Below, in pieces: positions 7,191 through 32,317 of a DNA stretch of 64,000 nucleotides. How positions within the stretch are numbered: the first letter of the stretch is position 1; the number at the start of each line of letters is the position of its first letter. The DNA is from Paroceanicella profunda (lineage in GTDB: Bacteria > Pseudomonadota > Alphaproteobacteria > Rhodobacterales > Rhodobacteraceae): assembly GCF_005887635.2 (NCBI RefSeq), contig NZ_CP040821.1:1-64000 (forward strand). Reading direction: 5' to 3'. The notes beneath the pieces were generated by a model that was not told where the DNA came from, did not search any database, and saw only the letters and a list, made by a program, of their open reading frames with translations. A program made the position numbers and the translations under genes.

Positions 7191-8000
7191 TCAGCCGCTC
7201 ACCGTCATCTTGTCGATGCCGTAGATCCGGTCCACCACGATCAGCGCCACCACCGCCAGCAGCAGTTGCAGCGTGCTCAGCGCGGCGATGGAGGGGTCGA
7301 ACTGGTGCTCCATGTAGCTCAGCATCACCACCGGCAGGGTGTTCGTGTCCGCCGAGCCGAAGAAATAGCTCACCGGCAGGTTGTCGAAGGAGGTGAGGAA
7401 GGAGAACAGCGAGCCCGCCATGATGCCCGGGCGGATCAGCGGCAGGGTGACATGGCGGAACACCGCGAGCGGGTTCGCCCCGAGGATGGCCGCCGCCTCC
7501 TCATAGGCGCGCGGCACGGAGCGGTACACCCCCGCCACCGTGCGCACCACGTAAGGCAGGCACACCACCGTGTGGGTGACGAGCAGCGCGGTGAAGGAGA
7601 TGCCGATCCCCACCCAGGACAGGAAGAACAGCCCCGCGAAGCCGATCACGATCATCGGCATGGAGAGCGGCGAGAGCAGGAAGGTCATCACCGCCCCGGC
7701 CCAGCCGGCCCGGGAGCGGGCAAGGGCCAGGCAGGCCGGGATGCCGATGAGGCAGGAGAGCACGGTGGCGCCCACCGCCACCTCGAAGGACACGATCAGC
7801 GATGCGATGAACGGCTCGTATTCGAAGATGTGCCAGAACCATTTCAGCGACCAGCCGGGCACCGGAAAGGCCACGTAGGAGGCGGAGGTGAAGGAGACCA
7901 CCACCACCACCAGGATGGGGGCGAGCATGAACACGAAGAAGACCACCACGAAGGCGAGCAGGCCGAGGGAGGCCCAGTCCGGGCGGGCGATGCGGGCCAT
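7191..8000 (-). CDS. ABC transporter permease, PotC-like
   Basis: Inner-membrane permease of a spermidine/putrescine-type importer, 269 aa with about six hydrophobic segments. The first follows a short basic N-terminus (MARIARPDW). The cytoplasmic EAA loop that docks the ATPase is visible (EEAAAILGANPLAVFRHVTL). It starts 2 nt after the stop of the partner permease gene. It is the last gene of an operon running ATPase, HyuA, HyuB, binding protein, permease, permease. The substrate is probably a nitrogen heterocycle or related compound, given the hydantoinase genes in the same operon (inference). Confidence 0.93.
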   Translation of the reverse strand: MARIARPDWASLGLLAFVVVFFVFMLAPILVVVVVSFTSASYVAFPVPGWSLKWFWHIFEYEPFIASLIVSFEVAVGATVLSCLIGIPACLALARSRAGWAGAVMTFLLSPLSMPMIVIGFAGLFFLSWVGIGISFTALLVTHTVVCLPYVVRTVAGVYRSVPRAYEEAAAILGANPLAVFRHVTLPLIRPGIMAGSLFSFLTSFDNLPVSYFFGSADTNTLPVVMLSYMEHQFDPSIAALSTLQLLLAVVALIVVDRIYGIDKMTVSG

Positions 8001-8002
8001 CC

Positions 8003-8860
8003 TCAGCCTCCCTGCCGGCGCACGAGCCGGAGCTGCAGCCACAGGCAGACGAGGGCGATCACCAGCAGGATGGTGCTCATCGCGCTGGCCATGCCGAAGT
8101 CGCGCGTGGTGTTGAACTGCTGGTAGATGAGCAGCGGCAGGGTCTGCAGCCCGCCGCCCAGCAGCACCAGGGTGACGAAACTGCCGTTGGCGATCATGAA
8201 CACCAGGATCGCCCCGGTGCCCACCCCGTCGAGCGACAGCGGCAGGGTGACCTCGAAGAAGGTGCGCAGCCGCCCCGCGCCCAGCGTCTGGGCCGATTCC
8301 TCCAGCCGCCGGTCCACCCCCTGCAGCACCGAGGCGATGGAAAGCACCATGAAGGGCACCAGCACATGGACCAGGGCGGCGACGGCGATCTCCGGCGAGT
8401 TCAGCAGCCGCAGCGGCCGCTCGATCAGGCCGAGCTGGTCCACCAGCAGGTTGTTCACCAGCCCGCGCCGCGCGAACAGCACCTGCCAGCCGAAGGTGCG
8501 CATGATGATGGAGGTGAGCAGCGGCGCGATGAGGAGGAAGATCACCACTCCGGACCATTTCCCCGCCTTGCGCACCAGGAAATACGCCACCGGGTAGCCG
8601 ATCAGCGCCGAGATCAGCGTGACCCCGGCCGAGAGCGCCACCGTCTCGAAGATCACCCCGAGGTAGAAGCGGTCCGACAGCAGCTCCCCGTAGCGCGCCA
8701 GCGTGAAGCCGCCCTCCTCGCCCAGGAAGGAGCGGTTGCCGTTGTCGATGAGCGGCGCCACGAAGAACCCGGCGAGAAACAGCACCGCCGGCAGCACGAG
8801 CATCCAGGCCCGCAGCACGGGGCGCGGGCGGGGCGGGGCGGCGGGGCTCACGTCAGTCAT
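8003..8860 (-). CDS. ABC transporter permease, PotB-like
   Basis: Partner permease of 285 aa with a proline-rich cytoplasmic N-terminus and about six membrane segments. Its EAA loop is degenerate but recognisable (EESAQTLGAGRLRTFFEV). PotB-type permeases pair with PotC-type ones as a heterodimer. It lies 72 nt downstream of the binding-protein gene, with the PotC-like gene following immediately. No sign of truncation. Confidence 0.93.
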   Translation of the reverse strand: MTDVSPAAPPRPRPVLRAWMLVLPAVLFLAGFFVAPLIDNGNRSFLGEEGGFTLARYGELLSDRFYLGVIFETVALSAGVTLISALIGYPVAYFLVRKAGKWSGVVIFLLIAPLLTSIIMRTFGWQVLFARRGLVNNLLVDQLGLIERPLRLLNSPEIAVAALVHVLVPFMVLSIASVLQGVDRRLEESAQTLGAGRLRTFFEVTLPLSLDGVGTGAILVFMIANGSFVTLVLLGGGLQTLPLLIYQQFNTTRDFGMASAMSTILLVIALVCLWLQLRLVRRQGG

Positions 8861-8932
8861 GGCACGTGTCCGGAGTGAGGGCCCCGCGCCGGATGCGGCA
8901 CGGGGCAGGGGCGCGGCGGACGGCGGCGGGGC

Positions 8933-9982
8933 TCAGCCGCCGATCTCGCGGTTCCAGCGGTCCACCCATTCGTTGCGCACCTCGATGATCTGCGCGTAGG
9001 GCGGGAAGACGGTCTTCTCCCAGGGGGTCACACGGGTGGCGAGCACCTCGTCATAGGTGACGTTCTTGTTGGTGACGCCGTAGTTCATGATCTTGGCGAA
9101 CTTCGACTGGTTCTGCGCGTCGAGCACCTCGTTCACGTAGTCCCAGGCCAGCGGGTCGGCGTTCTTCGGGATCTGCACCGCGACACCGTTGAGCGAGCCG
9201 CCCTCCTCGGGGTTGATGAAGTCGATCCACTCCGCCCCGCTGTCATAGTGGTTCCAGGTGCGGCCGTCGAAGTAGATGCCGAGGTCCGCCTCGCCGGAGG
9301 AGAGGTGGTTGAAGAAATCGTTCGGGCCGCCCCAGAACACCAGGTTGTCCTTCATCTTCGCCATGGCCTCGAAGAACGGGTCGACATTGTCCACCCCGCC
9401 GCCGAGCGCCTCGGCCATCGCCCAGATCAGCATGATCGGGGTGACGGCGTAGGAGATGGAGGGTACGGAGGCGATGAACTCGCCCGCCGCCACGCGGTCC
9501 ACGAACTCCGCGAAGCTCTTCGGCGGCTCCGAGACCACCTGCTTGTTGTAGGTGATGCCGCCCACGCCGTAGTCGAAGAGCGTGCCCTTGCCCTTCACCG
9601 AGTCGGTGAACTGCTGCGGGATCTCGGCGAGGTTCGGCAGCTTCTCCACCGTGAAGTCTTCCACGAGATCGCCGTCCGCGGCCGCGAGGGCGAGGTCCGG
9701 CGTCATGATCAGCATGTCCACCGGCGGGTCGGACGGGTCCGCCTCCACCTGGGCCAGCCACTGGGCCGGGCCGCCGAGCGAGACATTGGCCTTCGCGCCG
9801 GTCTTCTCCTCGAAGGGGGCGACGAAGCAGGAGCGCACCGCCTCCTCCCACACGCCGCCGAAGGCGGTGACGGTGATCTCGCCACCGGCCGCGCGGGCCA
9901 TGCGGGGCAGGGCGCCCGCGGCGAGGGTGGTGCCAAGGGCTGCCCCGGTGCCGAGGAGCTGGCGTCGTGTCAGTGTGGTCAT
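8933..9982 (-). CDS. ABC transporter substrate-binding protein, PotD-like, Tat-exported
   Basis: Periplasmic receptor of 349 aa. The N-terminus has a twin-arginine-like signal (TRRQLLGTG) with a hydrophobic stretch and cleavage near ARA-AG, about residue 31. The mature protein begins with the family strand ITVTAFGGVWEEA. It continues with extracellular binding-protein features, including a YFDGRTW loop. The start at 9982 has a GGAGAG ribosome site. It sits between HyuB and the permeases in one operon, so it probably captures the substrate or precursor of the hydantoinase-like enzyme. Confidence 0.92.
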   Translation of the reverse strand: MTTLTRRQLLGTGAALGTTLAAGALPRMARAAGGEITVTAFGGVWEEAVRSCFVAPFEEKTGAKANVSLGGPAQWLAQVEADPSDPPVDMLIMTPDLALAAADGDLVEDFTVEKLPNLAEIPQQFTDSVKGKGTLFDYGVGGITYNKQVVSEPPKSFAEFVDRVAAGEFIASVPSISYAVTPIMLIWAMAEALGGGVDNVDPFFEAMAKMKDNLVFWGGPNDFFNHLSSGEADLGIYFDGRTWNHYDSGAEWIDFINPEEGGSLNGVAVQIPKNADPLAWDYVNEVLDAQNQSKFAKIMNYGVTNKNVTYDEVLATRVTPWEKTVFPPYAQIIEVRNEWVDRWNREIGG

Positions 9983-10032
9983 CTCGTCTCTCCGCTGTTG
10001 TGTCCTCGCCCGGGGGGGATCCCCGGAGCGCA

Positions 10033-11949
10033 TCATGTCCGCTCGAGCGCCTCGGCAAGGCGGGCGCGCGCGGCGGCGGCCTCGTTCGGTGTGGCGGCGC
10101 GGCGCGGGAAGTCCGCCGGCAGTTCGCCGCGCACGGCGGCGAACACCTGCGCCCGGGCGCGCAGCCGCGTGCCGAGCGGCAGGGCGATGAGCGCCGCGTT
10201 CAGCCGGTCCATCGCGGCCGGGGTGAAGATCGCGTCCCACGCGCTGCGCTCCGGGCCGAAGCCGCCGTCCGCCGGGCCGGAGACATAGTCCCGCGCGGCG
10301 CCGGCCTCGGTCACGAAGCCGTTCTCCACGTCGCGGGCGATGGCCTCGGGCGCGCGCAGGGCCGGGTCTCCCCAGCCGCCGGCCCCGGGGGTGAGGAAGG
10401 TCACCGTGTCCCCCGCGTTCACCTCCAGCACGTCGATCTTGCCCAAGCGGCGCTCGTCCGGCGCGCCGCGGTTCACGATCAGCGCCCCCGGGGCGCCCGG
10501 GCGGCCGCCCTGCACGCCCCAGGGGCGGAACATCAGCCGCTCTATGCCGCGGCCGAGCACGTTCGAGCCGTCGGTGAGCACCCGGAAGGTGAGCTCCATG
10601 CCGCAGCCGCCGCGCCATTGCCCGGCCCCGCCGGAATCGGGGCGGAGCGCGTAGCGCAGCACCTCGATGCCCAGCTCGGCCTCCACCGTCTCCACCGGGT
10701 TGTTGGCGAGGTTGGAGATGCCGCTGTCGCGCCCGTCCACCCCGTCATGGCCCTCGCGCGCGCCGGTGCCCCCGATCATCGGCTCGATCACCTGCACATG
10801 GCGGCCGCCGCGCCCGTCCGGCTCGGCCATCACCACGGGGATCACGCAGCCGGAGGCGGCGGCGGGCATCACCCCGGGCAGCGCCTTGCCGAAGGCCCCG
10901 TTCAGCACGTCGTTCACCCGGATGGCGGCGGCGTGGCGCACGCCCACGGCCGCGGGTTCCTGCGGGTTCACCAGCGTGCCCTCCGGCGCGGTGATGCGCA
11001 CGGCCGAGAGCAGGCCCACGTTGAGCGGCACCGTGGGGTCCAGCGTGTGGACGAGCGCGAGCACCCGCAGCGTGAGCCAGGCATGCGGCCGCCCGCGCGA
11101 GGGGATGTTCATCGCCGTGGCCACCTGCGGGTCCGTCCCCGTGAAGTCGAGATGCACCTCGCCCCCCGCGAAGGTCGCGGCCAGCGACAGGCGCACGGGC
11201 ACCGGGGTGGCGGCGTCATCGTCGAGATAGTCGGAGAAGGTATAGGTGCCCTCGGGCACCCGGGCCAGCACCGCGCGGGCCTTCTGGCCGGCATAGTCCA
11301 CCAGGTCGCCCTCTGCCGCGACCACTGTCCCGACACCGTGCTGGGCGATGGTCTGCTCCAGCCGGCGCCGCCCGGCGGCAAGGGCTGCGAGCATGGCGCG
11401 GATGTCGCCCATGTTGGCCTCCGCCGTGCGGCTGTTCGCGTCGAGGAACAGTTTCACGTCCGCGTTCATCTCGCCGCGCTTCATCAGCTTCACCGGGGGG
11501 ATGCGCAGGCCTTCCTGGAAGATCTCGGTGTTGGTGGGCGAGATGGAGGAGGGCACGCGGCCGCCCACGTCGGAGCAATGCACGAAGCACCAGCCGTAGG
11601 CCACGATCTCGCCTTCGTGGAAATAGGGCTCGATCATGTGCAGGTCGGGCAGGTGGGTGGCGAGGCCCTCGGAGCGGTAGGGGTCGTTGGTGAGGATCAC
11701 GTCGCCCGGCTCCAGCGGCCCCACGGCGGCGATGGCCGGCGCGCATTCGAGCCCGACGAAACCCGACACGCCGATGGAGCGCGGGTAGGCGAAGAAGCGC
11801 CCGTCCAGCCCGGCCAGCGCGCAGGCGAAATCCGCCGTTTCCTTCACGTAGAGGGTGCGGCCGGTGCGCTGCAGGGTGAGGCACATCTCCTCGGTGACGG
11901 CGGCGAGCTTGTTGCCGAGGATTTCCAGGGTGACCGGGTCCAGTCTCAT
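10033..11949 (-). CDS. hyuB: Hydantoinase/oxoprolinase B-type subunit
   Basis: Subunit B of an ATP-dependent hydantoinase/5-oxoprolinase/acetone carboxylase-family enzyme, 638 aa, the usual size. The N-terminus (DPVTLEILGNKLAAVTEEM) and the PGAGGWGDP segment near the C-terminus are diagnostic. With subunit A it should hydrolyse a cyclic amide, or carboxylate a ketone, at the cost of ATP. Its start overlaps the stop of hyuA by 4 nt. It lies inside an ABC importer operon, which argues for action on the imported compound. The exact substrate cannot be read from sequence. Confidence 0.93.
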   Translation of the reverse strand: MRLDPVTLEILGNKLAAVTEEMCLTLQRTGRTLYVKETADFACALAGLDGRFFAYPRSIGVSGFVGLECAPAIAAVGPLEPGDVILTNDPYRSEGLATHLPDLHMIEPYFHEGEIVAYGWCFVHCSDVGGRVPSSISPTNTEIFQEGLRIPPVKLMKRGEMNADVKLFLDANSRTAEANMGDIRAMLAALAAGRRRLEQTIAQHGVGTVVAAEGDLVDYAGQKARAVLARVPEGTYTFSDYLDDDAATPVPVRLSLAATFAGGEVHLDFTGTDPQVATAMNIPSRGRPHAWLTLRVLALVHTLDPTVPLNVGLLSAVRITAPEGTLVNPQEPAAVGVRHAAAIRVNDVLNGAFGKALPGVMPAAASGCVIPVVMAEPDGRGGRHVQVIEPMIGGTGAREGHDGVDGRDSGISNLANNPVETVEAELGIEVLRYALRPDSGGAGQWRGGCGMELTFRVLTDGSNVLGRGIERLMFRPWGVQGGRPGAPGALIVNRGAPDERRLGKIDVLEVNAGDTVTFLTPGAGGWGDPALRAPEAIARDVENGFVTEAGAARDYVSGPADGGFGPERSAWDAIFTPAAMDRLNAALIALPLGTRLRARAQVFAAVRGELPADFPRRAATPNEAAAARARLAEALERT

Positions 11950-20405: not shown

Positions 20406-21734
20406 ATGGCCCGCCGCCCAGCCCATGCCCCGCTCGCGGTGATGATCAACGGCCGCCGCGTCGGCCGGCTCAGCCGCGCGGCCTCCGGCGCGGTGAGCTT
20501 TTCCTATGACCCGGGCTGGCTGGGCTGGGCTGCGGCCTTCCCGGTGTCGCTCTCCCTGCCGCTGCGCGAGGAAGGCTACGCCGGCGCCCCGGTGCTCGCG
20601 GTGTTCGACAACCTGCTGCCGGATGCCGAGCCGGTCCGCCGCCGGGTGGCCGAACGGGTCGGCGCGGCGGGAACCGACCCGTTCAGCCTGCTCGCCGCCC
20701 TTGGCGCGGATTGCGTGGGCGCGCTGCAGTTCCTGCCGGAGGACCGCGCCGCCGGGCCCGTCGGCGCCGTCTCCGGCCGCGCCGTGACGGAGGCGGAGAT
20801 CGCGCAGGTGCTGCGCAACCTCGCCAGCGCACCGCTCGGGCTGGACCCGGACGCGGAGTTCCGCATCTCCCTCGCCGGGGCGCAGGAGAAGACGGCGCTG
20901 CTGCGCGCCGGCGGGCGCTGGATGATCCCGCAGAGCACCACGGCCACCACCCACATCCTCAAGCCGCAGATCGGCGCGCTGCCCCAGGGCATCGACCTCA
21001 GCGACAGCGTGGAGAACGAGTTCCTCTGCCTCCGGCTCGCCTCCGCACTCGGCCTGCCGGTGGCCCGGGCCGAGATCGCCGATTTCGAGGAGGTCCGCAC
21101 CCTGGTGGTGGAGCGCTTCGACCGGCTGCACGCGGCGGACGGGCGGCTGCTGCGCCTGCCGCAGGAGGATTTCTGCCAGGCGCTCGGCGTGCCGCCGGCG
21201 CGCAAGTACCAGTCCGAGGGCGGGCCGGGCCTGGTGGAGATGCTGCGCCTGCTGCTGGGCGCCGACCGGCCGGAGGCCGACCGGCTGCAGCTTCTGCGCG
21301 CGGCCATGGTGTTCTGGCTGCTCGGCGCCACCGACGGGCACGCGAAGAACTTCAGCCTGTTCCTGCGCCCCGGCGGGCGCTTCGGCCTCACGCCGCTCTA
21401 CGACGTGCTGAGCGCGGAGCCCGCCCGCGCGGCCGGCGCCCTGCGCCAGCGGCAGTTCCGGCTGGCCATGTCGGCCGGGCGCAGGCGGCACTACCTGGTC
21501 GACGAGATCATGCCCCGGCACTTCGCGCAGACCGCCGCGGAGGCCGGGCTCGGCCCGCGCCTGCTCCGCCCCCTAGTCGAGGAACTGGCCGACACGGGCC
21601 CCGCCCGGGCGGAGGCGGCGGTGGCCGCCCTGCCGCCGGGCTTTCCCGCCTCCCTCGCCACCGCGGTGCTGGACGGGCTGACCCGCCGCAGCGCGCGGCT
21701 GGCCCTGCCGGAGGGTGCGCGCGCCGGCGGATGA
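20406..21734 (+). CDS. hipA: HipA-like serine/threonine kinase toxin
   Basis: Type II toxin kinase of 442 aa. An N-terminal HipA-like domain ends near residue 110. The kinase core follows with ISLAGAQEKTAL (glycine-rich loop region), HILKPQ (ATP-binding lysine region), catalytic ATDGHAKNF (Asp and Asn) and a metal-binding YDVLS. HipA kinases phosphorylate a tRNA synthetase or similar target and cause dormancy. All key residues appear present, so it is probably active. The start at 20406 is the first ATG after hipB; an open frame beginning 12 codons earlier lies inside hipB. Confidence 0.92.
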   Translation: MARRPAHAPLAVMINGRRVGRLSRAASGAVSFSYDPGWLGWAAAFPVSLSLPLREEGYAGAPVLAVFDNLLPDAEPVRRRVAERVGAAGTDPFSLLAALGADCVGALQFLPEDRAAGPVGAVSGRAVTEAEIAQVLRNLASAPLGLDPDAEFRISLAGAQEKTALLRAGGRWMIPQSTTATTHILKPQIGALPQGIDLSDSVENEFLCLRLASALGLPVARAEIADFEEVRTLVVERFDRLHAADGRLLRLPQEDFCQALGVPPARKYQSEGGPGLVEMLRLLLGADRPEADRLQLLRAAMVFWLLGATDGHAKNFSLFLRPGGRFGLTPLYDVLSAEPARAAGALRQRQFRLAMSAGRRRHYLVDEIMPRHFAQTAAEAGLGPRLLRPLVEELADTGPARAEAAVAALPPGFPASLATAVLDGLTRRSARLALPEGARAGG

Positions 21735-27214: not shown

Positions 27215-28618
27215 TCAGCCCGCCGCAGGCGCGCGCGGGCGCCGCGCGAACACCCCGAACCAGCGGTTCCGGAAGGCAATGTTCTCCGGCCGGCCGGTGA
27301 AGATCCGCTCGATCTCGCGGGCGTAGAACTGCGCCCATCGCTGGCGGTAGGCGCGGTATTTCTCGCCCGGCAGCTTCTGCGGCCCCTCCACGACGCGCGG
27401 CACGAAGACGCCGCCGTCGAAGACATAGGTGAGGAAGGCGTTGTAGCAGCCGGATTCGTAGGCGAGGAAGGCCGCGCCCTCGCCGATGTCCAGCGTGTGG
27501 CCGAGCACGGAGATGGCCAGGCGCGACTCGCCCCAGTGCCCGTCCGGGGCCATCAGGAGCTGGCCGCCGTCCTCGATCATCCGCAGCGCGGAGAACAGCG
27601 CCGCGCGCGGGTTGTCCGCGATCGAGATCATCCCCGGCGCATATTGCGCGGAGTTGCTGCGCTGGATCTGGATGCCGGTCTCGAAGATGCGCTGGAAGTT
27701 CAGCCGCACCATGGTGAGGTGCCCGGCGTGGAAGGTGGAGAACAGCACGCCCCTGTCGCGCGGCACGACGCTGGTGATCTCGCGCGCGCGCTCCAGCGGC
27801 GTGCTCTCGTAGACGTCGCGGGAGAAGTATTCGGGAACCGGCGCGCGCCCGGAGATGAAGCCCGCGGTGATCGCATCCTGGAAGATGTGGTCCGCCGCGC
27901 AGGCGAAGCGCACCCGCGACACCCAGGCCTCGCGGTGGATGCGCGGGTTGTCGCGGTGCGGGAACAGCGCGGCGACGAGGCGCGGGTCCGGGTCGATCCG
28001 GGGCATCATCGCGCGCGCCCGCTCGACGAACCCCTCCCGGGGGTCGTCGGCCACCGGGGCATATTTCAGCGCCGCCAGCCCGAAGATGGAGGCGGGCGGA
28101 ATAGGGTGGAACCGGTTGATGTAGTCGAGCACGCCGAAGCGGGCCTCCGCCCCGCCGGCGCGCTGCGCGGCCATGATGTCCTCCACCTCGGCACTGCGCC
28201 CCAGCCGTGCCGCCGTCACCAGCGCCACGCCCGCGGCGTGCACGCTGGAGAAGGTCTCCGCCGGGGTGCGCAGGAGCAGCTCCAGCAGCACCTCCCGGCA
28301 GTCCTCCTGCTCGAAGCGCCGGCGCAGCAGCGCCATGAACTGCGGGTCGGAGATCCGCCGCGCCGGCACCCGGCCCAGCACGGAGGCGAGGTGTTTCGGG
28401 TCGGTCCGCCCCACCCGCTTCGCGGCGCGCAGCACCTCCTCGAAGCGCTTCAGCGTTTCGCCGACCTGCGGCGGAACCGGAAGCGCGTCCTCGGTCTCGT
28501 CGGTCTCCGTGTCGATGTCGGGTCCTGCTGCCATCTCCGCGGCCTCCCCTGCGCGCGCGGCATCGTGCGAAGCGATGCGCGCATCCGTGCCGGGCGCGTC
28601 GCCCGGTCCCCCGCTCAT
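27215..28618 (-). CDS. LpxL/HtrB-like (LPLAT superfamily) acyltransferase domain protein
   Basis: Protein of 467 aa without an obvious signal peptide. The C-terminal half resembles lipid A-type acyltransferases. A histidine block (FSTFHAGHLTMVRLNFQRIF) is followed by LLMAPDGHWG and then a GEGAAFLAYESGC segment, in the order of the LpxL active-site region. The first ~230 residues are unfamiliar and helical. The gene is the last of a five-gene cassette, overlapping the VOC gene by 4 nt. An acyltransferase next to a dedicated ACP suggests it takes its acyl group from that ACP and moves it to a lipid or sugar acceptor (inference). Confidence 0.6.
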   Translation of the reverse strand: MSGGPGDAPGTDARIASHDAARAGEAAEMAAGPDIDTETDETEDALPVPPQVGETLKRFEEVLRAAKRVGRTDPKHLASVLGRVPARRISDPQFMALLRRRFEQEDCREVLLELLLRTPAETFSSVHAAGVALVTAARLGRSAEVEDIMAAQRAGGAEARFGVLDYINRFHPIPPASIFGLAALKYAPVADDPREGFVERARAMMPRIDPDPRLVAALFPHRDNPRIHREAWVSRVRFACAADHIFQDAITAGFISGRAPVPEYFSRDVYESTPLERAREITSVVPRDRGVLFSTFHAGHLTMVRLNFQRIFETGIQIQRSNSAQYAPGMISIADNPRAALFSALRMIEDGGQLLMAPDGHWGESRLAISVLGHTLDIGEGAAFLAYESGCYNAFLTYVFDGGVFVPRVVEGPQKLPGEKYRAYRQRWAQFYAREIERIFTGRPENIAFRNRWFGVFARRPRAPAAG

Positions 28619-29082
28619 TTCGGCGGCTCCCGGGTTTCGGGCAGCACCGGCAAGAGTTCGATGAACTCCACGATCACGCCGCGGGTGTGCGCCGGGTGGA
28701 GGAAGTTGCACAGGAACGGCCCCGCGCCGCGCATGTGCCGGCTCTCCAGCAGGCCCTTGCCCCGGGCCTGCAGCGTGTCGCGCACCAGGTCGAGGCTGGG
28801 CACGGTGAAGGCCACGTGGTGCAGCCCGCCCGCGCCCTTGTTGAAGCTGGCCAGCGGCCCGCCGCTGGGGATGATGAATTCCACCGGCGAGCCGCCGGGC
28901 GCGGCCCGGGTGAAGATGCACTCCACCGACCAGGCCTCCACCCGGCCGCGGGAGGTCTCCTCCAGGCCCAGCAGCGCCATCATCTCCTCCGCGTCGCGGA
29001 TGTCCGGGAACACGATGCCGACATGGTGCAGCTCGCCCACCTGCACGCCTTCCGGCAAGCCCACGGCGCCGATGGGGCTCAT
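28615..29082 (-). CDS. VOC-family protein, methylmalonyl-CoA epimerase/glyoxalase-like
   Basis: Small metalloenzyme-like protein of 155 aa with two beta-alpha-beta-beta-beta units. Likely metal ligands are the His in LHHVGIVF, the His in LHHVAFTV, and the Glu in VEFII and VEFIE. This is the layout of methylmalonyl-CoA epimerase and glyoxalase I. The start at 29082 overlaps the methyltransferase stop (ATGA), and its own stop overlaps the acyltransferase start. In this cassette it may epimerise or rearrange an acyl-ACP or acyl-CoA intermediate; no direct evidence shows which. Confidence 0.85.
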   Translation of the reverse strand: MSPIGAVGLPEGVQVGELHHVGIVFPDIRDAEEMMALLGLEETSRGRVEAWSVECIFTRAAPGGSPVEFIIPSGGPLASFNKGAGGLHHVAFTVPSLDLVRDTLQARGKGLLESRHMRGAGPFLCNFLHPAHTRGVIVEFIELLPVLPETREPPK

Positions 29083-30047
29083 CGCGGGCACCGCGCGACG
29101 AGAATGTAGGTGACCGGCAGCTCGAGGCGCAGCGCGCGCTCCAGGCTCTCGCCCGCGGCGGGGAAGGCCCGCGTCTCCACCAGCTCCAGCCCGGCGGCGG
29201 CGACCAGCGCCTCCACCTCCTCCTGCGCGCGCACGAGGTAGAGATGGTCCGGCGCCGGGGCGTTGGCGGGCACGTTGATCCACACGAGCCCGCCGGGCGC
29301 GAGCAGACCGCGGATCACCTCGATGGCGAGGCCCGGCTCCTCCAGGTGCTCCAGCACCTCGGAGAAGGCGATGGAGGTGAAACGCCCGGCATGGGCGGCG
29401 CGCATCTCGGCGTCATAGAAGTTGCAGCGGGTGAGGCGCACGCGGTCCGCATGGCCCAGCAGGCCCAGCACCTCGCGGGTGTGGGCGATGGAGGTCTCGG
29501 AGATGTCCCAGGCGTCGATGCTGCCGAAGCGGCCCGATTCGATGGCGAGGCGCAGCAGCAGCCCGTGGCCCGGCCCGATCTCCAGATGCGCGCCGCCCGC
29601 CGGCAGGCCGGCGAGATGCGTGTCTGCGAAATGGGTCATCGCGTTCACGTGGTTGAGCCAGATGCAGTCCGACACCAGCAGCCCGTCCATGTAGCGCGCC
29701 ATCATCGCGCGGTTGGCGTAGACGTCGCGCTCGGCCTCCGCGAAGGAGGACAGCCGGTAGCGGCCCTCGCGGCGGAAGAACAGCTCCTCCGGGAACACGA
29801 TCTCCTCCACGAAGTAGCGGTAGTCCTGCGCGTAGCTCTCCAGGCTGCGGCCGGTGCCGGCCACAAGCCGCAAGATGAGGTCGGCCACGCGCTCGGCGGT
29901 GGCGACCATGCCGGGGCTGCGGGCGGCGAAGCTGCGGCGCAGGTATTTCGCATGGGCAGGATAGGCGGCTTCCACCGCCTCGACCACGCGGCGGGTGGCC
30001 GGGCCCATGCCGGCCTCCACCTCCGGAAGGGTTTCGAGTTCGGTCAT
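29079..30047 (-). CDS. Class I SAM-dependent methyltransferase
   Basis: Methyltransferase of 322 aa. A helical N-terminal domain of about 140 residues precedes the Rossmann core. Motif I is LEIGPGHGLLLRLA, the acidic residue after strand 2 lies in DAWDISE, and the post-motif segment is FSEVLEHLEEP. O- or C-methylation cannot be told apart from sequence. It lies 54 nt behind the FkbH-like gene and overlaps the VOC gene. In known methoxymalonyl-ACP pathways an O-methyltransferase accompanies FkbH, which makes O-methylation of an ACP-bound glyceryl unit a reasonable hypothesis. Confidence 0.88.
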   Translation of the reverse strand: MTELETLPEVEAGMGPATRRVVEAVEAAYPAHAKYLRRSFAARSPGMVATAERVADLILRLVAGTGRSLESYAQDYRYFVEEIVFPEELFFRREGRYRLSSFAEAERDVYANRAMMARYMDGLLVSDCIWLNHVNAMTHFADTHLAGLPAGGAHLEIGPGHGLLLRLAIESGRFGSIDAWDISETSIAHTREVLGLLGHADRVRLTRCNFYDAEMRAAHAGRFTSIAFSEVLEHLEEPGLAIEVIRGLLAPGGLVWINVPANAPAPDHLYLVRAQEEVEALVAAAGLELVETRAFPAAGESLERALRLELPVTYILVARCPR

Positions 30048-30101
30048 GTGCGTGCCTCCTGTGTCAGGTTGGCGGGCTGGCCCTCTCCGGGGTGTCCCGC
30101 G

Positions 30102-32069
30102 TCAGTGTCGGCCGGTCTCGTCCACGATGTCCATCGGAAGATCGTCGGGGGGCTGCCAGCCGGCGAGGTCGAGATGCCACAGCGTCTCGCCCTCCGTCGC
30201 GCCGGGCCCGCCGGAGGTGAAGCCGAGGGCCGGGTAATGTCCGCGCACCAGCGCGTTTTTCGGCGTGGGGATGTAGCGCCCGGTGAGCCGCTCCGCCCCC
30301 GCCGCGCGCGCCGCGCCGGCGAGGACGGCGAGCACGGCCTCCTCCACCCGGCGCTTGAGCACCCGGCAGCTCATCAGCCAGGTGTCGATCACCCAGTCGG
30401 GCCCCCGCGCCTCGGCGATCACCACGCCGATCATGCCGTTGTCGCCGAAGCGGTCGGCCAGGCGTGCCTGCAGGGTGAACCAGCCGGGCGCGGCGGTGAG
30501 GGCGGCCACCTCCGCCTCGGAGCGCCGGCGGGTGGTGAGGTTGAACTGGTTGGACTTGTTGATGAGCTGGGCGATGCGCGCCCGCCTCTCCGCGTCGAAG
30601 GGCCTGAGGGTGCAGACCATGTCGAGCGAGCGCAGGTAGGCGCCCATGTCCGAGGTGGTGGCCTCCAGCCGCAGCCGTTCCGCCCGGCCGGCGTAGAGTG
30701 CCGCGCGCCCCGCGTCCTCGGCGCCGAAGGCGGTGGTGTCGAAATAGCCCGTCGCCATCAGCGTGGGCGCGTAGAGCGCCGGGTCCTCGGGCAGCTCCGG
30801 CACCATCACCTGCGGGCACTCGGCGCGCACCTGGGCGCGCTCGGCCGGGTTGTCGTCAAGGAACACCAGCGCGTCGAGGCCGATGTCGAGGGTCTCGGCA
30901 ATGGCGCGCAGGTTCGCGGCCTTGTCGGTCCAGTTCGCCTGGAAGACGGTGATGTGCTCCTCGCGCAGCAGCATGTCCGGGTGCTCGCGGAAGGCGCGGC
31001 GGGCCACGGCGTCGTCGTTCTTCGAGGCGACGGCCAGCAGCACGCCGCGCGCCCTCAGCTCCAGCGCCAGGCGCTGCACGGCCAGGTGCGCCTCGCCCCG
31101 GGCCGAGCCCTGCCCCAGCACCAGCCCGTCCACGCCGTCATCGCCGATCACCCCGCCCCAGAGCGTGTTGTCGAGGTCCAGCACCAGGCACTTGGCGGTG
31201 AGGCCGCGCGCGGCCGCGAGCGTGCGCACCACCCATTCGGCATGCAGCGGGATCGCGTCCGGGCTGAAGGGCAGCTTGGAGCCGTGCCAGTGCTGCGGGT
31301 CCTCCCAGCGCGCCAGCCCCCAGGCGCCGGCCAGCGCGGCGATGTCGACCAGCACGATGTCGCCGCCCGCCGCCCAGTCCGCCAGCGCGGCATTGAGCGC
31401 GGCGACCATGGCCGCCGGGCTGCCCGGGTGAAGCCGGTCGAACCCGCCCAGGAACGGCAGCGCGGGCGGCACGACGCTCTGCATCAGCACCGGGCCGGAG
31501 AGGCTCTGCCGCAGCCCCGCCACCAGCCCGCGCAGGGTGCCGAGCGCGGCTGCCACCCGCTCCGCCGCGGCCTCCGCGACGGGTTCGAACCCGTCGAGCC
31601 CGAGCATCCGGCGATCGGGGGCGACCAGCGCCGCGGAGGCCGCGGCGGCGTGCAGGGCGCTGCCCGGGTCCAGCGCCTCGCCCATCGCGGTGCCGTATTC
31701 TGTTCCGATCACCCGCACCCGCAAGCCCCGGCGCAGGGCGGTGGCGGTGATGGCCGGGCCGAGCAGCGAGAGCGTGCCGTCCCCCAGGAGCGCGAGGCGC
31801 AGCGGCTCCGGCAGGCCCGGCCCGTCGGGCAGCGCGTCCACCAGCCGAGCGAGGCGGGCAAGCTGCGGTTCATCCAGCGCGTGCAGCGACAGGGCGCGCA
31901 GCGCCTGCCAGTCCGCCGGCCCGGCCGCGCCCGCCTTCAGCCGGCCGCGGATCTCCGAAATCCCGGCGCGCAGGTCCGGGGGCGGCGGGCGCAGCCAGCC
32001 GAGTTCGAGCGGGGCGGCGGGCCCGGGGGGCGGATGGCGGGACATCAGGCTCGGCCCCTGATCCGTCAT
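30102..32069 (-). CDS. FkbH-like HAD-IIIC family enzyme (glyceryl-ACP type)
   Basis: Protein of 655 aa with the typical three-part architecture. An N-terminal SGNH-like region (about 1-275) is followed by a HAD-IIIC domain with DLDNTLWGGVIGDDG (about 285-300, nucleophile Asp), ASKND and FLDDNPAER. A C-terminal GNAT-like domain ends the protein. FkbH proteins dephosphorylate 1,3-bisphosphoglycerate and load the glyceryl unit on an ACP. All HAD motifs are intact. Its start overlaps the ACP stop by 4 nt, so carrier and loading enzyme are made together. No polyketide synthase lies nearby. Confidence 0.92.
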   Translation of the reverse strand: MTDQGPSLMSRHPPPGPAAPLELGWLRPPPPDLRAGISEIRGRLKAGAAGPADWQALRALSLHALDEPQLARLARLVDALPDGPGLPEPLRLALLGDGTLSLLGPAITATALRRGLRVRVIGTEYGTAMGEALDPGSALHAAAASAALVAPDRRMLGLDGFEPVAEAAAERVAAALGTLRGLVAGLRQSLSGPVLMQSVVPPALPFLGGFDRLHPGSPAAMVAALNAALADWAAGGDIVLVDIAALAGAWGLARWEDPQHWHGSKLPFSPDAIPLHAEWVVRTLAAARGLTAKCLVLDLDNTLWGGVIGDDGVDGLVLGQGSARGEAHLAVQRLALELRARGVLLAVASKNDDAVARRAFREHPDMLLREEHITVFQANWTDKAANLRAIAETLDIGLDALVFLDDNPAERAQVRAECPQVMVPELPEDPALYAPTLMATGYFDTTAFGAEDAGRAALYAGRAERLRLEATTSDMGAYLRSLDMVCTLRPFDAERRARIAQLINKSNQFNLTTRRRSEAEVAALTAAPGWFTLQARLADRFGDNGMIGVVIAEARGPDWVIDTWLMSCRVLKRRVEEAVLAVLAGAARAAGAERLTGRYIPTPKNALVRGHYPALGFTSGGPGATEGETLWHLDLAGWQPPDDLPMDIVDETGRH

Positions 32070-32317
32070 GCGATTTTGGTCGCGACCCGGTCCACGAGTT
32101 CGCCCACGTCCCGCAGTTCCGCAATCTCGTCGCTGGCGAAGCGGAAGCCGAAACTGCGCTCGATACTTGTGAGAATACGGACATGCTGCAGGCTGTCCCA
32201 GCCTTCCACGTCATCTGCGGTGGTCTCTCTCGTGATACTTTCGGGCGAAAGATCGTCGAGATCGAGCACATCGACGATTATTTCGGAAATCTTGCCCAGC
32301 AATGCTTCAGTATCCAC
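32066..32317 (-). CDS. Acyl carrier protein
   Basis: Carrier protein of about 83 aa. The phosphopantetheine site is the serine in EGWDSLQHV, preceded by an acidic helix 1 and followed by the usual helix 2 and 3 segments. A GTG at 32317 is chosen as start because it gives the normal ACP length and AGGAG lies 12 nt upstream, a slightly long spacing; no ATG is suitably placed. It is the first gene of the cassette and is coupled to the FkbH-like gene by an ATGA overlap. It is probably a dedicated carrier for the glyceryl-derived unit rather than the fatty-acid ACP. Confidence 0.88.
   Translation of the reverse strand: MDTEALLGKISEIIVDVLDLDDLSPESITRETTADDVEGWDSLQHVRILTSIERSFGFRFASDEIAELRDVGELVDRVATKIA

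Follow-up and report, generated by a model that had tools for sequence, protein, structure and literature searches.

The first 64,000 bases of contig NZ_CP040821.1 of Paroceanicella profunda (the window; the contig, C4, has 189,758 bases and belongs to a genome of 5.47 Mb, G000) encode at 27215-32317 an acyl carrier protein (ACP) and an FkbH-type enzyme together with a methyltransferase, a VOC protein and an LPLAT acyltransferase. The locus raises the question of what such a cassette would make and to what the acyltransferase would pass it on. Comparison with related loci indicated that it is probably an uncommon version of a gene set that is itself common but has drawn little notice and is usually accompanied by a membrane acyl exporter, and in the window lineage the LPLAT looks to stand in the place of the MBOAT protein of that exporter. 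In order of transcription, the features are:

32066-32317, minus strand: ACP, 83 aa, with a GTG start and a WDSL attachment serine; PF00550 (PP-binding) 31.8 bits, cut-off 20.8
30102-32069, minus strand: FkbH-type HAD-IIIC enzyme, 655 aa, with the motif LDLDNTLW; predicted ACP loader
30048..30101, minus strand: gap of 54 nt between the FkbH and methyltransferase genes, the sole junction without an overlap
29079-30047, minus strand: class I S-adenosylmethionine (SAM) methyltransferase, 322 aa; PF13489 (Methyltransf_23) 42.3 bits, cut-off 27; N-terminal part family-specific
28615-29082, minus strand: VOC/methylmalonyl-CoA-epimerase-like protein, 155 aa; PF13669 (Glyoxalase_4) 61.5 bits, cut-off 27
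27215-28618, minus strand: VexE-type LPLAT acyltransferase, 467 aa, with a helical N-terminal half and a C-terminal LPLAT domain; predicted dyad H297-D359

All five open reading frames lie on the minus strand and are transcribed from 32317 towards 27215. ATGA overlaps were present at three of the four junctions (ACP/FkbH, methyltransferase/VOC and VOC/LPLAT), in agreement with the single transcription unit of the original prediction. The same five-gene order was sought elsewhere and was found in the sister species (genome G196, locus L102), the sole other genome of the genus compared. Because this species keeps the gene order and all three overlaps, the cassette is not a chance arrangement, and the five-gene operon is real. 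A scan of the operon for promoters and terminators gave no signal above chance. Amino-acid identities between the window and L102 were 93 % (ACP), 81 % (FkbH), 94 % (methyltransferase), 97 % (VOC) and 77 % (LPLAT), and the corresponding dN/dS ratios by NG86 were 0.04, 0.30, 0.15, 0.06 and 0.39. Four flanking genes gave 0.10-0.33, the LPLAT ratio being the highest among the nine genes compared, while YN00 gave 0.05-0.08 for ACP, FkbH, the methyltransferase and MprF. That the LPLAT is a relic was considered and not favoured: the sister species retains it with an intact dyad, at the ratio of 0.39 given above. The closest LPLAT and FkbH proteins beyond the window's own came from Oceanicella sp. 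SM1341. The G+C content of the ACP gene was 0.56 in the window and 0.57 in L102 (11338-11586), against 0.73 in the surrounding region and 0.75 in the neighbouring FkbH gene.

The four genes before the LPLAT would constitute the donor module. The domain scores listed above bear out the earlier identification of an ACP with a DSL serine, a SAM methyltransferase and a VOC protein, and the FkbH protein matched TIGR01686 with 292.2 bits, above the curated cut-off of 146.65, as well as PF21211 (FkbH_N) with 29.0 bits (cut-off 27). No other gene of the genome exceeds this family threshold, the single additional match reaching 20.6 bits, far below it. The overlap of the ACP and FkbH genes joins a carrier-protein gene to a loading-enzyme gene, and loading of this ACP by FkbH is predicted. 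FkbH enzymes move a glyceryl group from 1,3-bisphosphoglycerate onto an ACP, and the bisphosphoglycerate that they use is D-configured. The methyltransferase, which belongs to a protein cluster (cluster 3) found in 16 loci including the window, is predicted to O-methylate the ACP-bound unit. The VOC protein is predicted to epimerise C-2 of the acyl-ACP. It reached 56.4 bits with the methylmalonyl-CoA epimerase model TIGR03081, under the cut-off of 114.95, and its nearest solved structures include methylmalonyl-CoA epimerases, enzymes that invert the alpha carbon of an acyl thioester. The positions H,E,H,E that we take to be its metal ligands, assigned with an alignment to 1jc4 and 3oa4, were intact in 12 of 13 aligned VOC proteins, the window protein included, the third being Gln in L085. 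A second VOC subfamily (cluster 21) was located beside FkbH in L017, L045, L085 and L094; three of these four proteins retain H,E,H,E, L085 being the one with Gln.

The distribution of this module was followed by scanning contigs with an 18-sequence FkbH alignment, and the best 80 of at least 571 confirmed stretches were compared. Genes of the relatives were predicted with a codon-usage caller of our own instead of a standard annotator before the proteins were clustered, and the cluster counts are therefore approximate; the label MBOAT denotes that a member of the cluster lies somewhere within the fetched locus, at most about 10 kb away from FkbH. Among these 80 loci, the ACP cluster was detected in 69, the MBOAT cluster in 45, the methyltransferase cluster in 14 and VOC in 10. 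The MBOAT-holding loci came from Proteobacteria, Acidobacteria and others. A full six-gene set (ACP, FkbH, methyltransferase, MBOAT, a second MBOAT partner and VOC) was found in five of the 80, namely L021, L022, L023, L025 and L039. The genes followed in exactly this order in L021 (Phenylobacterium), L023 (Sphingomonas, with one extra gene) and L039 (Novosphingobium), while in L022 and L025 the methyltransferase gene was located elsewhere or inverted. In L016, from the same family as the window, the six genes were divided between two strands.

The MBOAT of L021 matched PF03062 with 88.7 bits, and its sole NCBIfam match was DltB (TIGR04091, 170.9 bits, under the cut-off of 375). Its partner (cluster 8) had no Pfam match and is called SGNH-like from a GNSR motif and its position only, and another partner type (cluster 11) matched Lipase_GDSL_2 and ALGX, both under their cut-offs. 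Of 48 MBOATs (the 45 from the best 80 loci plus L016, L017 and L018), 36 ended in an exact FxYxxF and 39 in [FV]xYxxF; four of the remaining nine ended in VYKxF and five had no such tail, some of these being cut or miscalled. Passages of PMC12148441 describe FxYxxF as the acyl-shuttle motif, with acylation shown for the PatA of peptidoglycan, and state that, Dlt apart, MBOAT/SGNH systems operate without a carrier protein. The FkbH loci seem to be an exception, a further MBOAT/SGNH class that possesses one. In a plasmid collection, the methyltransferase had one match, on pTM1 of Tistrella mobilis, where genes for a HAD-IIIC enzyme, the methyltransferase, an ACP, an MBOAT and a hypothetical protein are grouped; the LPLAT had none in that collection. 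Searches of open-licence literature brought up no paper that places FkbH in the acylation of envelopes or polysaccharides, and the papers listed there for FkbH with MBOAT concerned the natural products aeruginosin and suomilide. A cluster-12 gene adjoins FkbH in L018, L027, L028, L035, L047, L081 and L098. As the L027 member encodes a short-chain dehydrogenase, an oxidised or reduced unit may be possible in some systems.

LPLAT, FkbH, ACP and methyltransferase genes occurred together in five loci: the window, L102 of the sister species, L036 (a Pseudolabrys metagenome-assembled genome, MAG), L056 (a gammaproteobacterial MAG) and L127 (alphaproteobacterium G736). Among the best 80 FkbH loci, 45 held an MBOAT and two an LPLAT, and none held both. 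In ten genomes behind cassette loci, LPLAT was found in both of the LPLAT type and in none of the eight of the MBOAT type. A search with PF03062 (MBOAT) gave zero matches in the window genome, G196, G914 (L036) and G915 (L056), and a single one in G736, 3.3 Mb from the cassette in contig coordinates. As many relatives combine the same set with an MBOAT and an SGNH-like partner, the LPLAT appears to be a replacement output.

This LPLAT was rare. Counting the window genome itself, it was detected in 1 of 196 genomes of the order (a single-sequence search, the one match being the window genome), 3 of 385 of the class and 7 of 398 of the phylum. The seven other genomes of the class and phylum searches comprised G736 with the cassette, G275, G438, G853 and G912 with longer VexE/TPR-type proteins, and G644 and G699 with short contigs. 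Within the genus of G736, only G736 among 39 genomes had an LPLAT. Protein searches with one query sequence returned two proteins and with four queries four, the window's own included, and the distant kin were recovered via FkbH loci and genome searches. The longer VexE/TPR-type proteins are those of L106, L107, L128 and L129, and no FkbH match was present in the fetched stretches; L130 and L131 lie on short contigs and were left out of judgement. The proteins of L106, L128 and L129 scored 440-725 bits with the VexE model (cut-off 1200), and in L106 and L129 they adjoin VexC- and VexD-like capsule export genes. In L107, from an alphaproteobacterium, the TPR-LPLAT gene (7248-9341) is directly followed, at about 9230-10675, by a gene whose product resembles an adenylate-forming ligase, perhaps another donor-loading pair.

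The original prediction had called the acyltransferase LpxL-like and the apparent end-user of the ACP-bound unit. An LPLAT-fold enzyme is still the likely end-user, and the likeness to LpxL held for the fold but not for the sequence family. A structure model built from 11 sequences (pLDDT 75) has the fold of PatA/LpxM; an earlier model from six sequences (pLDDT 60, poor at residues 298-364) had no PDB match at E <= 0.001, and searching the sequences of the PDB with a profile of the LPLAT returned a chance match only. The protein had zero Pfam matches, PF03279 included, and a genome-wide search with PF03279 identified two other genes, with HFGNWE and HLGNWE motifs. VexE was the sole NCBIfam match in five of the six cassette LPLATs scanned (21-31 bits; 28.3 bits for the window protein, under the equivalog cut-off of 1200), and the protein of L036 had none.

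The residues of the predicted dyad agreed with a VexE-type assignment. In passages of PMC9597891, VexE is described as having lost the acid of the HX4D/E motif while retaining His and Asp, and as preferring beta-hydroxymyristoyl-ACP as donor. In the LPLAT alignment, the His was conserved in 11 of 11 sequences, the second position was Asp in ten and Glu in one, and no acid stood at the HX4D/E acid position in any of the 11. The window protein keeps H297, has T302 at the HX4D/E acid position and carries D359 as the acid equivalent to E200 of PatA; the equivalence of D359 to D532 of VexE was drawn from an alignment to VexE-like proteins in which VexE itself was absent. Thus, the cassette acyltransferase is VexE-type and no true LpxL. 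It is like VexE in that an LPLAT domain follows a helical N-terminal part, and in that VexE depends on an ACP-bound donor while the cassette has an ACP gene in the same operon. It differs from VexE, whose donor is a beta-hydroxyacyl-ACP and whose acceptor is UDP-GlcNAc, in its length (467 aa against a 656-position model), in lying outside an ABC-export capsule locus and in having its own ACP and FkbH alongside.

For the FkbH tree, L008, L019, L020 and rows under 480 aa were excluded beforehand, and 61 of the remaining 85 rows were used (those labelled MBOAT, LPLAT, methyltransferase or VOC plus five named ones); a second tree contained 37 hand-picked rows. In the 37-row tree, the FkbHs of the window, L102 and L127, all LPLAT-linked, formed one group (100/94) that adjoined the six-gene MBOAT loci L021, L022 and L023 (99/94), nested in a clade of 14 rows (100/99) with a VOC gene in 11 of its 14 loci. 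The FkbHs of L036 and L056 grouped elsewhere (100/98), with the MBOAT loci L054 and L052 (100/99). The 61-row tree, which did not include L127, agreed. The starred branches require the LPLAT label to have changed twice or more; the swap to LPLAT has at least two FkbH origins.

In the methyltransferase tree, MBOAT and LPLAT rows were mixed: the window protein clustered with L036 and the MBOAT locus L025 (98/95), and L127 with L056 (92/91, not starred). Labels in this tree were not more clustered than in many shuffles (53-70 of 500 were as low, and 153-162 of 500 without L127). The LPLAT tree placed the cassette proteins on one side and the four VexE/TPR types on the other (91/96, not starred, with one long branch). 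Module exchange is the simplest reading of these trees.

Within the window, 53 genes were called and 48 were scanned against Pfam, five small ones being excluded; for most genes only strong matches were displayed (E up to 1e-8 or 1e-6). Neighbours of the cassette include TRAP and ABC transporters, regulators, dehydrogenases, mprF and a gene for a VirJ/AcvB protein. The original prediction had linked the cassette to the mprF-acvB operon. The link is one of adjacency only, which the sister species shares; in the stretches around the other three LPLAT loci, neither an MprF nor an AcvB relative was detected. A HipA-like kinase gene (20406-21734; HipA_C, Couple_hipA) near the mprF-acvB pair is also conserved in the sister species. 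A polysaccharide context was observed at two of the three other LPLAT loci: the flanks of L036 (nine proteins scanned) encode two glycosyltransferases, three sulfotransferases and an FkbM methyltransferase, and those of L056 (ten scanned) a Poly_export protein, a DegT sugar aminotransferase, a GDP-mannose dehydratase, a glycosyltransferase and a GSCFA protein.

Taken together, we give an even chance to the reading that the VexE-type LPLAT acts in the cytoplasm, passing a glyceryl-type ACP donor, tailored by the methyltransferase and VOC protein, to a sugar or glycolipid precursor. We infer the chemical steps and the acceptor from the protein families as follows. FkbH would charge the ACP with a small hydroxyacyl group in thioester linkage, most likely a glyceryl unit from glycolytic bisphosphoglycerate, the VOC protein would invert C-2 and the methyltransferase would add a methyl ether. 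The LPLAT would then use H297 and D359 to transfer this unit off the ACP onto a sugar nucleotide or a lipid-linked sugar in the cytoplasm, at a hydroxyl or amine. The MBOAT/SGNH-like pair of the relatives would be fed by the same donor module, and the group would be carried across the inner membrane in the fashion of Dlt. With the export pair gone in the window lineage and an LPLAT in its place, the group would therefore be added before export.

Several observations weigh against this reading. The neighbours of the cassette are transporters and catabolic genes, with no glycan genes near it among the 48 scanned, and the two Poly_export genes of the genome sit on contigs C1 and C5 while the cassette is on C4. 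VOC was present in three of the five LPLAT loci (window, L102 and L127) and not found in L036 and L056. The Glu that serves the epimerase as catalytic base was seen by eye in the window VOC protein and is absent from most relatives. The VexE scores of the cassette LPLATs are far under the equivalog cut-off, and since VexE prefers C14 donors, a C3 donor is a jump. FkbH and methyltransferase trees disagree on the nearest loci, and the nodes of the LPLAT tree lack strong support. The absence of MBOAT from G914 and G915 is weak evidence, because both are MAGs of unknown completeness.

Other explanations were weighed against the same data. FkbH, an O-methyltransferase and an ACP occur together in methoxymalonyl-ACP pathways, and the cassette product could accordingly be a polyketide extender such as methoxymalonyl-ACP, or a small diffusible metabolite. 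Loading sets of this kind, for methoxymalonyl-ACP or glyceryl-ACP, include FkbH, AsmN and Tmn16 and resemble the window operon in having FkbH, a stand-alone ACP and a methyltransferase. The operon, however, contains no acyl-CoA dehydrogenase or hydroxyacyl-CoA dehydrogenase and has a VOC protein and an acyltransferase instead. As originally predicted, no ketosynthase was found among the 48 of 53 window genes scanned, nor was a nonribosomal peptide synthetase module, a statement limited to the window, as no search for them was made elsewhere in the genome. In the relatives, whose loci were annotated only in part, the cassette was not seen inside a polyketide cluster. An extender or diffusible metabolite is therefore very unlikely.

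The LPLAT could also be an ordinary envelope-lipid acyltransferase that passes the ACP-bound unit to lipid A or a phospholipid. This seems improbable: it would place the enzyme with LpxL/LpxM, from which it differs in having neither a PF03279 match nor the HX4D/E acid, the genome has two other genes of the PF03279 family, and the mprF-acvB neighbourhood is confined, among the stretches of the LPLAT loci, to the window and its sister species. Alternatively, the LPLAT could use a long-chain 3-hydroxyacyl-ACP to build a lipid anchor, the FkbH unit being a separate glycan modification attached by an unlinked transferase. The donor preference of VexE (passages of PMC9597891) and the VexE-type proteins in the capsule ABC-export loci L106 and L129 agree with a lipid anchor. 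Nevertheless, FkbH, ACP and methyltransferase genes accompany the LPLAT in all five loci of the cassette type, Pfam scans revealed no capsule ABC-export genes (vexA-D type) beside the window cassette, and the LPLAT occupies the place of the relatives' MBOAT in a genome that has none. We regard the lipid anchor, too, as rather unlikely.

The reading of a glyceryl-type donor with a VexE-type output thus keeps one part of the original interpretation, a module that supplies an acyl donor on a carrier protein and has an unusual output, and revises another, as the output is VexE-type and the MBOAT form is commoner in relatives. The closest known MBOAT/SGNH systems are Dlt D-alanylation (DltC-DltB-DltD), PatA/PatB of peptidoglycan and AlgI/J/X; the likeness is that the relatives have a DltB/AlgI-like MBOAT, which they combine with a carrier protein and often with an SGNH-like protein. 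Loading in Dlt is performed by an adenylation enzyme, whereas in the window and its relatives it is predicted to be performed by FkbH, and unlike the Dlt-like MBOAT/SGNH systems, the window genome has an LPLAT instead of an MBOAT. A flagellar glycan pathway with a di-O-methylglyceroyl group, as in Campylobacter, is a lead only: an excerpt of PMC7099621 lists cj1302 as an FkbH-domain gene and cj1301 as an annotated epimerase, and one of PMC3958885 reports di-O-methylglyceric acid on flagellin.

A broader proposal, which we put forward tentatively and hold to be somewhat less than evenly balanced, is that of a widespread bacterial "glyceryl Dlt": a tailored glyceryl donor would be produced by FkbH, ACP, methyltransferase and an epimerase-like VOC protein and passed to an exchangeable output enzyme, usually an outside-acting MBOAT/SGNH-like pair and at least twice an inside-acting VexE-type LPLAT. 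Such systems may explain glycerate esters of polysaccharides, for example the L-glyceryl of gellan described in passages of PMC9737242, which name the activity of the glyceryl step but not its gene. With a D-configured FkbH donor and an L-glyceryl on gellan, inversion of glyceryl-ACP from D to L would explain a VOC gene in the set. If true, the proposal would join FkbH enzymes, otherwise associated with polyketide assembly, with envelope acylation by MBOAT/SGNH machines and would provide a testable candidate for the attachment of glycerate esters to bacterial surface polymers. The window lineage would then represent a natural case in which a periplasmic acylation output was seemingly replaced by a cytoplasmic one.

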